From NCBI GenBank assembly GCA_024640545.1, contig JAHEEU010000005.1, forward strand, positions 1-39,957: a stretch of 39,957 bases of DNA. The letters run 5' to 3'. Both the position numbers and the translations under genes were made by a program. Positions 26,611 through 32,889 of this stretch are shown here, one piece after another (position 1 is the stretch's first letter; each line of letters starts with the position of its first letter). Source of the DNA: Geobacteraceae bacterium (GTDB lineage: Bacteria; Desulfobacterota; Desulfuromonadia; Desulfuromonadales; BM103). Below the pieces are notes generated by a model, which had not been told where the DNA came from, ran no database searches, and worked only from the letters and a program-made list of their open reading frames with translations.

Positions 26611-27042
26611 ATGAAAATTCACAAGGCGAGCCTGTTTGCCCTCTATGCCGTGCTCGAACTGGCCAGCGATCCGGAACGCCAGCTTTCGGCCACCGAAATC
26701 GCCGACAAGTACGGCATTTCCACCCACCATCTGGCGAAGATTCTGCGCACCCTGGTGCGTTCGCGAATGGTCCAGGCCGTACGCGGCGCCGGCGGCGGCT
26801 ATCGCTTTACCGGGATTGTCAATCGCACCACGCTGCTCGATGTCATCGAGTTGTTCGAGACCCTGGAATCAGACCTCGACGCCCCGGGCCCTAGGACCCA
26901 GGCTGGCGAAGCCATTATCGAGGAACTGCAGAGCATCACCCGTGAGATCGACGACCTCACTAGGGCGGTTCTCGACACCATCACTCTGGAAACCGCACTT
27001 AACAGCGCCCGCCAGCGCGCCGGGACAGCTTCTCAAGAATAA
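26611..27042 (+). CDS. Rrf2-family transcriptional regulator
   Basis: SLFALYAVLELASDPERQLSATEIADKYGISTHHLAKILRTLVRSRMVQAVRGAGGGYRFT. Confidence 0.92.
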   Translation: MKIHKASLFALYAVLELASDPERQLSATEIADKYGISTHHLAKILRTLVRSRMVQAVRGAGGGYRFTGIVNRTTLLDVIELFETLESDLDAPGPRTQAGEAIIEELQSITREIDDLTRAVLDTITLETALNSARQRAGTASQE

Positions 27043-28642: not shown

Positions 28643-29932
28643 ATGCACAAAATCTACTTGCTGGTTCTGGTCTGTTTGCTGACGGGTCTTCTGGCCGGTA
28701 CGGCGGAAGCGGAGAAGCCCTACTTCTTCCCGTATGTCAACCCCTACGAGGCGACGGTCATGGAAGTGCCTTCGATTTACGAAGCGCAGCTGCCGGCCGA
28801 AGTGCCGACCAAGGATTTTCGCATCCATCCCTTCCCGGACCGCAAGACTCCTGACGTTTTCTGGTACGACAAGGGCCTGGCCTGCTCCCTGGTTTACCAG
28901 AAGCACGAGGCCCCGCTGGTGTTCATCATTGCCGGCACCGGTGCCCGCTATAATTCACCGAAGATGATCAACATGCAGAAGGCCCTCTACCAGGCCGGCT
29001 TTCATGTCATTTCCATCTCTTCACCGACCATTGCCAACTTTATCATCAATGCCTCGGAAGGCATGGTTCCGGGGAATCTGTATGAAGATGCCAAAGATCT
29101 TTACCGGGTCATGGAAATGGCCTACGAAAAGGTGCAGAACAAGATCAAAGTGACCGACTTCTACCTCACCGGGTACAGCCTTGGCGGCATCCAGGCCGCC
29201 TACGTGTCGATGCTCGATGAGGAAAAAAAGCGTTTCGATTTCAAAAAGGTCCTGTTGATCAACCCCCCGGAAAGCCTGTATAATTCGGTGTCCAAGCTTG
29301 AGAAGCTGCTGGGCGACAATATCCCGGGTGGCGCGGCCAATTTCGATCTCTGGTACCAGCAGCTCCTCGACGATCTCGCCGGAATCTATGAAGAGATGGG
29401 ATTCTTCGACCTGACCGGCGACTACATCTACAAGGCCTACAAACGTCATCCCCCGCGGGAGGATTTCCTGGCGGCCCTGGTCGGGCTGTCATTTACCTTG
29501 AGCTCCTCCGATATGGTGTTCGCCTCCGATGTCATGCGCGGTGGCGGCTACATCACCCCGAAAAATGTCATCATGAACAATTCGACCTCATTGCGGCCTT
29601 TTGCCCAGGTCGCCAACCGGACCAGCTTTACCGATTATTTCCGTGAATACTTCTACCCGTATTTCCGCCAGCAGGAACCGGGCCTGACCGAGCAGAACCT
29701 GATCGATCGACTGACCCTGAAGAATATCGAGAGTTACCTGCGCAGTGCCAGGAAGATCGGCCTGCTGCACAATGAAGATGACATCATCATGCTCCCCGGC
29801 GAGGTCGATTACCTGCATGGCGTCTTCGGCGACCGGGCACAGATTTATCCCACGGGGGGGCACTGCGGAAACATGAATGATCCCACAGTGGTCCGTTTTA
29901 TAGTTGATTTCTTCAAAGGGCAGGAGGGCTGA
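28643..29932 (+). CDS. Secreted alpha/beta hydrolase-like protein
   Basis: Signal peptide MHKIYLLVLVCLLTGLLAGTAEA; nucleophile elbow TGYSLGG; late His in TGGHCGN. Confidence 0.8.
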   Translation: MHKIYLLVLVCLLTGLLAGTAEAEKPYFFPYVNPYEATVMEVPSIYEAQLPAEVPTKDFRIHPFPDRKTPDVFWYDKGLACSLVYQKHEAPLVFIIAGTGARYNSPKMINMQKALYQAGFHVISISSPTIANFIINASEGMVPGNLYEDAKDLYRVMEMAYEKVQNKIKVTDFYLTGYSLGGIQAAYVSMLDEEKKRFDFKKVLLINPPESLYNSVSKLEKLLGDNIPGGAANFDLWYQQLLDDLAGIYEEMGFFDLTGDYIYKAYKRHPPREDFLAALVGLSFTLSSSDMVFASDVMRGGGYITPKNVIMNNSTSLRPFAQVANRTSFTDYFREYFYPYFRQQEPGLTEQNLIDRLTLKNIESYLRSARKIGLLHNEDDIIMLPGEVDYLHGVFGDRAQIYPTGGHCGNMNDPTVVRFIVDFFKGQEG

Positions 29933-29934
29933 TC

Positions 29935-30699
29935 ATGACTGCATTCATTCAAAGAAAACGGCTGCTGCTGGTCTTGCTCTCAGGGCTCCTGCTGTTGAGC
30001 GCCTGTTCGACAACCCCGAAGACCACTCCCGAGACCGAGCCGCCGATGCGGACGTATGAGGAACTGGTTGACCAGAGCAAGAGCTCCCCGATCGATGTCT
30101 ATGACCCGCTTGAAGGTTTCAACCGCGGGGTATATCGTTTCAACTACTACTTCGACAAGTTCATTTTCCTGCCGATTGTCAACACCTACGAATTCATCAT
30201 GCCGACCTTTGCCCAGAAGGGTGTGTCGAACTTTGTCGACAACGTCTACGAATTCAGTAACTTCACCAACAACCTCTTGCAGTTGAAGTTCAAACAGAGC
30301 GGCATCACCCTGGCACGTTTTGCGATCAACACGACCGTGGGAATTGCCGGGTTGTGGGACCCGGCAACAGAAATGAATCTATACAGGCAGAAAGAGGACT
30401 TCGGGCAGACCCTCGGTCACTACGGGGTTGGCAACGGACCGTACCTCGTGCTGCCGATCCTCGGGCCGTCCAACCTGCGTGACGCCACTGGTGTGGTGGC
30501 CGATTCCGTTGCTTTCAGCAGCTTCGGTCCCCCAGCCTGGGTGGACGACGATGACGCGACCCTGGCTTTCAACGTCGTAACCGCGATTGACAAGCGTCAC
30601 CGGGTCCCGTTCCGCTACTATGGAACAGGATCGCCATTCGAGTACGAGATGATTCGCTTGCTGTATACATCGCAGCGGCAGATTGTTATCGAGAAATAA
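29935..30699 (+). CDS. mlaA: MlaA/VacJ family lipoprotein
   Basis: Lipobox LLLLSACS; YDPLEGFNRGVYRFNYYFDKFIFLPIVNTYEFIMP...GVSNFVDNVYE...DFGQTLGHYGVGNGPYLVLPILGPSNLRD. Confidence 0.95.
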   Translation: MTAFIQRKRLLLVLLSGLLLLSACSTTPKTTPETEPPMRTYEELVDQSKSSPIDVYDPLEGFNRGVYRFNYYFDKFIFLPIVNTYEFIMPTFAQKGVSNFVDNVYEFSNFTNNLLQLKFKQSGITLARFAINTTVGIAGLWDPATEMNLYRQKEDFGQTLGHYGVGNGPYLVLPILGPSNLRDATGVVADSVAFSSFGPPAWVDDDDATLAFNVVTAIDKRHRVPFRYYGTGSPFEYEMIRLLYTSQRQIVIEK

Positions 30700-30715
30700 A
30701 GGACTTACCCTGTCG

Positions 30716-30754
30716 AACCCGTTACGGCCGCATGCTTTGCGGCCGTAACGGGTT
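30716..30754 (+). terminator. 17-bp perfect stem-loop after mlaA, likely terminator (T-poor tail)
   Basis: AACCCGTTACGGCCGCA-TGCTT-TGCGGCCGTAACGGGTT. Confidence 0.6.
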
Positions 30755-30868
30755 TCCGGGGCCAAGTCCAGACAGTCGGAGAGGCGGCCGACCAGCACAT
30801 GCTCGGTGATGTTCTTGAGAACCTTGCTCTACACACCACGTCCGGGGCATTCAGACCCTGACCATCAG

Positions 30869-30959
30869 AAAAAAAAGCCCCATAGTCAGGAGTGACTATG
30901 GGGCAACGGGTTTATGGGTTTTTCTTTTAGGAGGGTAGAACATGAAGAAGTATGTTCTG
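30869..30959 (-). ncRNA. Candidate small RNA (~90 nt), novel
   Basis: Minus strand: 7-bp hairpin AGAACAT-(8)-ATGTTCT at the predicted TSS, unpaired ACCCTCCTAAAAGAAAAACCC, 12-bp stem GCCCCATAGTCA-CTCC-TGACTATGGGGC, then T8. Confidence 0.65.
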
Positions 30960-30965
30960 GTGAAT

Positions 30966-30993
30966 ATATTACCCGTTTAGTTATATATGTCAA
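30966..30993 (-). promoter_or_regulatory. Sigma70-like promoter for the candidate sRNA
   Basis: TTGACA-N16-TAATAT (or N17-AATATA) on the minus strand. Confidence 0.6.
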
Positions 30994-31360
30994 GCAGAAA
31001 ATTTGCTCGCTCAACATAGCCACCCGTCACTGGTCCAAACAGCAATTTTCATTTGGGACAAGCAGGAGACGAACTGTCTCCATCAATCCTCCCCCGGACT
31101 CCTCCTGTAAGACTTGCAAACGTTCAGTAATGGACCTCGCCTCTGGTCACCCGCAGCGATTATTTCCCGGACTATCTATCTCCTTCAAGGCCTGATGCCT
31201 TGACCGCAACGTTAAAACTCATAATGGGGCTTTCTCAGCATTCATTGCCTAGCCTCTGAGAAGCGACCCTATATGGAGCGATCTGGTCCGGTCCGTCACA
31301 AGGCCGGCACCAGTCGCCAATTCAGGCCATAAAATCTTGGCTCCGAAGAAGTAGAGCACA

Positions 31361-31388
31361 TTGACACGACTCAATGAAGAGTTAGAAT
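31361..31388 (+). promoter_or_regulatory. Sigma70-like promoter upstream of glnA
   Basis: TTGACA-N16-TAGAAT. Confidence 0.55.
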
Positions 31389-31560
31389 AATAAATATGGC
31401 ATTAATTTTACCAATGATTCGCTTCGACCACTCGATGATCAGGCCCGCCTGAAAATACTTATGGTTTGTTCTTGAAAGTCTCCGATCCACCAGCTGCCGG
31501 CCTTAGGCCCTAGCCATGTAACACACCCTCACACGCTTGCCTGTCAAAAGGAGTTTGTCC

Positions 31561-32889
31561 ATGACCCGTCAGGAAATAATGAAAGTCATTCAGGAAAAGA
31601 GTGTTAATTTCTTCCGTCTGCAATTTGTCGATATTTTTGGTTTCATGAAAAACGTTGCGATCCCTCTCAGCCAGATCGAAAAGGCCCTGGACGGCCAAAT
31701 GATGTTTGACGGGTCGTCGATTGACGGTTTTGTGAGAATCAATGAATCGGACATGTATCTCAAACCAGATTTCAATACCTTCGTGGTCCTGCCCTGGCGA
31801 AGCAAGAACGGCGTCAATGCGGCTCGCATCATCTGCGATGTCTACAAGTCCGACGGGACACCCTTCGAGGGATGCCCAAGGGTAAACTTGCAGAGGGTCC
31901 TGGCAGAGGCCAAGCATCTCGGCTACACCATGAATGTTGGGACCGAGTGTGAATTTTTTCTTTTCAACAAAGACGAGAAGGGGAACCTGGCCACGGAAAC
32001 AAATGATGTCGCCGGATATTTCGACGTTGACCCGGATGACACGGGTATCGGCTGCCGCCGAGAGATCATTGAAACCCTCGAGGCCATGGACTTTGAGGTC
32101 GAGGCCTCTCATCACGAGGTGGCCGAGGGCCAGCATGAGATCAACTTCAAATATGCCGATGCTCTGAAGGCCGCAGACAATACCGTGACATTCAAGTGGG
32201 TGGTCCGCTCGATAGCCGCAAAATACGGCTTCCACGCCACGTTCATGCCCAAGCCGGTTTTCGGCATCAACGGCTCCGGCATGCATACGAATCAGTCTCT
32301 CTTCAACCTGGACGGCAGCAATGCGTTTTTTGATGAAAAAGGGCCGCTGAAGCTAAGTGAAACGGCCTATCATTATATCGCCGGCATTATTAAAAACGCG
32401 CGCGGGTTTACTGCCGTGACCAACCCCCTGGTCAACTCCTATAAACGCCTTGTGCCGGGCTATGAAGCTCCGGTTTACGTCGCCTGGTCGGCCTCCAACC
32501 GCTCGGCGATGATCCGCATCCCTGCGTCTCGAGGGCTGGGCACCCGTACCGAAGTGCGCTGCCCGGACCCGGCCTGCAATCCGTACCTGGCTCTGGCAAT
32601 GATGCTCGGTTCAGGTCTCGACGGGGTGAAGAACAAGCTTGCCGCTCCGGCTTCGATCAACGTTGATATTTTCAAAATGACGCCGGAGGAAAAAGAGGCC
32701 TCGGGCATCGACAGCTTGCCTGCCAACCTGCAAGAGGCAATTGATGCCTTCAAGGAGAACCCGATCGCCAGAGAGGCCCTTGGCGAGCACATTTACAACA
32801 AGTATATCGAGGGGAAAGAGAAAGAATGGGATTCCTACCGGACGGCAGTCACCGACTGGGAGGTTAAGACATATATGAAAAACTACTAG
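31561..32889 (+). CDS. glnA: Type I glutamine synthetase (GSI-alpha-like)
   Basis: [73 protein letters not shown]. Confidence 0.96.

Follow-up and report, generated by a model that had tools for sequence, protein, structure and literature searches.

The gap between mlaA and glnA in the 39,957-nucleotide stretch of Geobacteraceae DNA analysed here (the window) raises the question of whether its minus strand encodes a small RNA and, if so, what such an RNA might act on and how it might be controlled. A first-pass annotation had proposed a new small RNA gene of anti-Shine-Dalgarno (anti-SD) character at this position. Our analysis demonstrates that the window sRNA is one member of a dispersed multicopy family of the Desulfuromonadales, which reaches up to about 17 copies per genome. 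The family is new and previously uncatalogued, and its kind resembles that of LhrC, the cuckoo/NfeR1 sRNAs and sX13.

Structure of the window copy

The sRNA of about 90 nt occupies positions 30869-30960 of the minus strand, on which all of the following parts lie, and the corresponding covariance-model match extends over positions 30867-30965 with 96 bits. Upstream reside the -35 hexamer TTGACA (30988-30993), which varies little or not at all among the aligned copies, and, separated by a 16-nt spacer, the -10 hexamer TAATAT (30966-30971) in a region that is kept across copies. This sigma-70-type promoter comprises 10 of 12 consensus bases and is present where the first-pass annotation had placed it; transcription would start near 30960-30958. 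Hairpin 1 (30937-30958) is formed by seven base pairs between AGAACAU (30958-30952) and AUGUUCU (30943-30937) that enclose the CUUCUUC-rich loop ACUUCUUC. The C/U-rich linker ACCCUCCUAAAAGAAAAACCC connects it to a terminator stem of 12 bp (30877-30904), recognized by base-pair changes and by the fold, whose loop CUCC constitutes a second anti-SD motif. The terminator tail is a run of eight T residues (30869-30876), apparent from the sequence, which might serve as a possible Hfq-binding U-tail. All of these elements, including the three accessible C/U segments, had been described beforehand and were recovered here. Within positions 29500-32000, the only terminator-like site is that of the sRNA. 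Promoter-like matches alone occur near chance level (four found, 2.0 expected) and are insufficient; the window element stands above chance because it is conserved in other copies.

The predicted fold of the 91-nt window RNA consists of the two hairpins, with a minimum free energy of -28.3 kcal/mol compared to -10.9 +/- 2.4 kcal/mol for shuffled sequences (z = -7.3; reached by none of 200 shuffles). Among 44 distinct copies, changes on both sides of a base pair were observed in four of the seven pairs of helix 1 and in five of the 11 pairs of helix 2, values that were reached in none of 500 shuffles, and 96.4% of the paired cells can pair, as opposed to less than 50% in slid controls. As the copies are mutually related, all such conservation counts are not independent. 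The sRNA has no conserved ORF, as had been claimed for the window copy: 33 of 62 copies possess no closed ORF within the transcript, those of the remainder are at most 24 aa long, and length variation among copies (ACCCTCC or ACCTCC) shifts the frame. A 45-aa ORF with a GTG start on the same strand begins upstream of the sRNA promoter.

Distribution of the family

The genome from which the window derives (3.0 Mb in 268 contigs, 88% complete) contains at least seven dispersed copies. Six were identified by DNA matching, the five besides the window copy being 72-85% identical in alignments that span the promoter through the T-run, and the seventh was located via its operator on the contig that bears iscR (C259). 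When the same DNA query was compared to 147 genomes, matches were obtained in most members of the family to which this genome belongs. A covariance-model search of related genomes, which the first-pass annotation had suggested, was carried out with model R1, counting copies at 60 bits or above; it yielded seven copies in the own genome, eight in G001, 13 in G005 and 17 in G014. Members of other families of the order possess one strong R1 copy each (e.g. G045, G056 and G051), and single copies that retain the operator were found in loci L021, L025 and L026 of such families. Genus g7 (G007, G011, G013) gave no DNA match and weak model matches only. Across 247 genomes of the phylum, matches were confined to the own genome and, in G188, to a single contig (L402), which is probably mis-binned, as it bears a flanking repeat of the type found in genus g5. 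Public records that share the sRNA terminator have hosts named Desulfuromonadales, Geobacteraceae or Deltaproteobacteria. Copies also occur in two records of Shewanella sp. MAG-BB-1 (L092, L105), which look like mis-binned Desulfuromonadales contigs. Carriage by phages was rejected, as the terminator pattern had no match in viral contigs.

The window RNA has no match above threshold in Rfam 15, and no description of the family was found in the literature searched, with subscription papers lying outside this search; the literature searches likewise returned no base-pairing sRNA family of such kind in Desulfuromonadales. Multicopy conservation and covariation, together with the lack of an Rfam match, substantiate the earlier proposal of a new small RNA gene.

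Genomic setting and dispersal

The hairpins and the promoter are conserved in relatives. The neighbouring genes of the fetched copies are unrelated to one another. For this reason the position between mlaA and glnA, which had been given as the setting of the gene, is incidental, and synteny with these two genes was rejected as a clue to function. Many of the copies in genus g5 reside inside a longer repeat with conserved flanks. Upstream it adds roughly 100 nt, at the end of which is a terminator-like hairpin (GGCCACC...GGTGGCC), and downstream some 75 nt (TCAGGGTNNGTAGTAATTT); it surrounds the copies at L225, L227, L228, L231, L233, L235, L236 and L244 and may explain the dispersal of the sRNA. 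Promoter and operator are retained in nearly all copies, the promoter being absent from a few (the second copy at L225, L260 and L247).

T-loop-like strings are located upstream of several copies. Integration linked to tRNA genes was rejected, as a scan of 37 loci with ARAGORN revealed no tRNA, and so was an association with riboswitches, since c-di-GMP-I riboswitches lie near copies in two of ten loci scanned. At L225 and L235 (isolate IMCC39146), c-di-GMP-I-GGC riboswitches are located closely downstream of the copies. A second, longer class of RNA without any Rfam match has only the CCTCC part and a C-rich terminator in common with the sRNA. It is characterized by the conserved core AACCATCGAAGRCTTGCTGTGGCAGGC and by other conserved upstream blocks, and occurs at L066, L098, L251, L252, L253, L254, L246, L230, L262, L024, L222 and L223 (for the most part family f1), at L217, L219, L220, L221 and L224 (family f8) and in the own genome (C99, C152).

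A segment antisense to translation start regions

Read as its reverse complement, the sequence CUUCUUCAUGUUCUACCUCC gives a whole start site, GGAGG-spacer-AUG-AAG-AAG, which specifies Met-Lys-Lys. The conserved CUUCUUCAUGUUCUACCUCCUAA corresponds in reverse complement to UUAGGAGG-UAGAAC-AUG-AAG-AAG, which comes close to an ideal start region. In the window copy, this antisense segment (ACUUCUUCAUGUUCUACCCUCCU, the complement of AGGAGGGUAGAACAUGAAGAAGU) is located at 30929-30951 and comprises CAU (30944-30942) and CCUCC (30934-30930). The anti-SD character assigned by the first-pass annotation thus holds with respect to the SD complement but is too narrow a description, since the antisense part covers the SD sequence, the spacer, AUG and AAG AAG. 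In 55 of 62 non-identical copies, CAU is positioned 5-7 nt before CUCC, compared to 27% in shuffles, a count that is not independent given the relatedness of the copies, and the bases preceding CAU in the 62 copies for the most part form the antisense of AAG AAG or AAG AAC. CAU is nearly invariant even though 12 of 44 copies leave its stem partner unpaired, an argument for its being kept for something beyond the stem.

Within the family of the host, genes with starts that fit AGGAGGT-N3-8-ATGAARAAR encode mostly exported proteins, such as a PpcA-like triheme cytochrome, porins, TRAP substrate-binding proteins, lipoproteins and multiheme proteins. In a sample of 722 genes, the start-anchored match was higher for genes with a signal peptide (p = 2e-4); the top 5% of these matches included 10 signal-peptide genes among 36, as against 112 of 722 overall (p = 0.055). 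Raw duplex energies did not separate signal-peptide genes from others, and the duplex energy across the whole 5' domain was rejected for target ranking as too noisy. Two genes of the own genome that had been selected by the pattern before any energy was calculated, a porin gene (C61) and a ppcA-like gene (C139), gave -25.6 and -23.1 kcal/mol, respectively, with the window copy, both ranking in the top 0.3% of a background sample drawn from G005. An extended ppcA match was sought in relatives and is not conserved there. A gene for Hfq is present in 17 of 21 genomes of the family, including the own genome and all 11 of high completeness.

The operator and candidate Rrf2 regulators

The copies have in common, in the stretch from TTGACA to the transcription start, an imperfect palindrome, ATAYCTGACY-N5-RGTAAGATAT; in the window it reads ATATATAACTAAACGGGTAATATAT (30964-30988, minus strand), with one mismatch to the pattern, and overlaps the promoter. 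Its spacing, ATA-3-GACY-5-RGTM-3-TAT, is that of the type-1 sites of IscR, an Rrf2-type regulator, as judged from the E. coli consensus. Type-1 sites are bound by the cluster-bearing form of IscR (PMC4055776). Such an operator over the promoter occurs far above chance in the genome, as would be expected of an IscR/Rrf2 regulon: allowing up to two mismatches, there are 12 operator places compared to one for the reversed control. When the core was loosened and up to one mismatch allowed, 10, 17, 17 and 6 places were counted in four relatives versus 1, 3, 2 and 0 for the reversed pattern, and G007, which lacks strong sRNA copies, has a single place. Judged by its sequence, the operator points to control by Fe-S, iron or redox status; nothing was found that points to nitrate or nitrogen control of the window sRNA.

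Four Rrf2 genes of the own genome score above the Pfam cut-off. An unnamed paralogue on contig C45 has the IscR-like motif MIITRATEYAIRAILYMSRQP...C-X6-C-X5-C-X2-H. NCBIfam classifies its product as an unassigned Rrf2 protein, with the RirA, IscR and NsrR models all below cut-off (IscR equivalog, 64.9 bits; cut-off 207.55). On a matrix of sRNA operators, on which the operators used in its construction score 14-31, an operator-like site closely upstream of the start of this gene scores 13.5-17.4 in nine of 13 orthologues; only three of the 722 upstream regions in a G005 sample attain a score of 13. Weaker sites are present in G002 (10.3), G009 (8.9) and G006 (4.9). In G007 the paralogue gene is present and its upstream site is absent, so that the genome missing the sRNA is missing this site too. 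The paralogue is apparently autoregulated. A related conserved site of the same spacing, ATAATTGACAGTTTTACTCAGGTAT, occurs in the cysE-iscR-iscS promoters of relatives, from which it is known, as the corresponding promoter of the own genome is lost at a contig end. The half-sites of the sRNA operator are identical neither to those of the iscR-promoter site nor to those of the paralogue's own site, which makes any assignment of the binding protein tentative. A further Rrf2-type gene, devoid of cysteines, is located within the window 4 kb from the sRNA (26611-27042, plus strand); it is not favoured as the regulator because it lacks Fe-S ligands.

The palindrome also precedes protein genes (L383, L391, L389, L390, L401, L394, L392, L385, L387, L398, L382, L400), which by our reading of their sequences include those for small thioredoxin-like proteins, a peroxiredoxin, a DsrE-like exported protein, malate synthase, an alkylsulfatase-like protein and a paralogue of ribosomal protein S4. 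This redox-flavoured set might represent a possible wider redox regulon, in which some members may belong to other Rrf2 proteins.

Comparison with known systems

The family has several conserved stand-alone copies with accessible anti-SD motifs, as is characteristic of multicopy C/U-rich sRNAs, and by analogy it plausibly works most like LhrC1-5, the alpha-r14/NfeR1 cuckoo sRNAs and sX13. LhrC1-5 of Listeria are stress-controlled multicopy siblings under LisRK that block SD sequences (PMC4132741). They are of similar size, with two hairpins flanking a single-stranded CU-rich stretch, and their loop, linker and terminator loop all contain CU-rich motifs. However, there is no relation at the level of sequence family: LhrC (RF00616) is the best sub-threshold Rfam match of the window RNA, with 25.5 bits as against a gathering threshold of 110, and Spot 42 (RF00021) gave 18.1 bits as against 80. 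In addition, the present family has an Rrf2-type operator in place of LisRK control, up to 17 dispersed copies, and a CAU and Lys-codon antisense that has not been described in LhrC. The alpha-r14/cuckoo sRNAs of Rhizobiales, including NfeR1, are stress-linked and block translation initiation (PMC10746234, PMC3927594); they are likewise multicopy, with anti-SD motifs in unpaired regions. Whereas they fold into two to four hairpins that all present CCUCCUCCC in the loop, the window sRNA has two hairpins, with CUUCUUC in the loop of hairpin 1, CCUCC in the linker and CUCC in the terminator loop. The Hfq-independent sX13 of Xanthomonas, which forms three stable stems with 4C/5C loops (PMC3771888), also directs C-rich single-stranded motifs at G-rich start regions, but the CAU antisense part is absent from sX13, and the three 4C/5C loops are absent from the window sRNA.

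With respect to control, the promoters resemble IscR type-1 promoters in the operator spacing ATA-N3-GACY-N5-RGTM-N3-TAT over the promoter, and the candidate repressor has three Cys and one His residues spaced nearly as in IscR. Differences are that one half-site of the sRNA operator is often TTAC, that the candidate regulator does not qualify as an IscR equivalog and that what is regulated here is a family of sRNAs.

Terminator loops of the CTCCTGR type were also observed in Pseudomonas (L057-L060, L063, L064, L067) and in C-rich RNAs of Thermomonas (L062, L072, L101, L112), the latter of which we take to resemble sX13. As the terminator-loop pattern alone is in common, these matches were set aside as family members; the window sRNA and the sX13-like Thermomonas loci share the pattern by convergence.

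Alternative explanations

A dispersed repeat of the MITE or REP kind might carry a promoter and a terminator without any trans-acting function, and the unrelated neighbours, the longer repeat around many g5 copies and the loss of the promoter at L225 (second copy), L260 and L247 would fit such an element. However, both hairpins exhibit compensatory changes, promoter and operator are kept in nearly all copies, and a single copy with its operator has been retained at each of the three loci from other families of the order; therefore, selection acts on the RNA and its control, and we regard a mere repeat as very improbable. Another alternative concerns which bases of the RNA matter. If it were a generic C-rich SD blocker in the style of sX13 or LhrC, only CCUCC and CUCC would count, CAU and CUUCUUC would be mere hairpin sequence, and any mRNA with a strong SD would be a target. 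That CCUCC or CUCC is retained in 61 of 62 copies and CAU is missing from several, that sX13 and LhrC act via such motifs (PMC3771888, PMC4132741), and that signal-peptide genes do not stand out by duplex energy all speak for this explanation. We nevertheless consider it rather unlikely, given that CAU is near-invariant at start-codon spacing from CUCC despite changes in its stem partner, and that the bases ahead of it are mostly Lys-codon antisense.

A related question concerns the regulator, as the operator might be bound by the IscR protein of the cysE-iscR-iscS operon instead of the other Rrf2 paralogue, the sRNA system being otherwise the same. The conserved ATAATTGACAGTTTTACTCAGGTAT site of identical spacing in relatives and the location of the seventh own copy on the iscR contig would be consistent with this assignment. 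It appears doubtful to us, since the scores of the cysE-iscR site on the sRNA-operator matrix are mostly around 8, compared to 13.5-17.4 for most paralogue sites, and since G007 retains iscR yet shows no strong sRNA copies and no paralogue site.

Proposed model and implications

The best model, which we hold to be probable though by no means certain, is that of sibling sRNAs controlled by Fe-S status that block ribosome loading on mRNAs of Met-Lys-Lys, mostly exported, proteins. The copies themselves, their conserved promoter, operator and hairpins, the antisense segment and the presence of an Hfq gene are observed; expression of the sRNA, the identity of its regulator, the signal, the targets and the outcome are what we infer from sequence. 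Each copy of about 90 nt is a stand-alone gene for what would be a trans-acting RNA, with a sigma-70-type promoter across which lies a palindromic operator of the IscR type-1 (Rrf2) kind. The repressor, a cluster-bearing Rrf2 protein that is most likely the C-X6-C-X5-C-X2-H paralogue, would shut all copies together, and loss of its Fe-S cluster under iron, Fe-S or oxidative stress would release them all. The antisense segment and the CUCC of the terminator loop would then pair with strong-SD, Met-Lys-Lys mRNAs of mostly exported proteins, the best candidates in the own genome being those for a porin, the PpcA-like triheme cytochrome and transporter-binding proteins, and pairing would block ribosome loading, probably with Hfq.

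Such a system would give the Desulfuromonadales a counterpart to the RyhB-type iron-sparing sRNAs, with many copies, class-wide targets and Rrf2 control. The family behind it is unusually amplified, is linked to a candidate Fe-S-sensing repressor and is complementary to the translation starts of cytochromes and other exported proteins. More tentatively, it might be speculated that a dedicated Fe-S-sensing Rrf2 repressor and up to about 17 near-universal anti-start-site RNAs together brake strong-SD Met-Lys-Lys mRNAs as a class once Fe-S clusters are lost. If this is true, targets would be picked by the type of their start site and not by individual seed matches, and the outcome would be an iron-sparing and envelope-sparing programme that includes heme-rich periplasmic cytochromes and porins.
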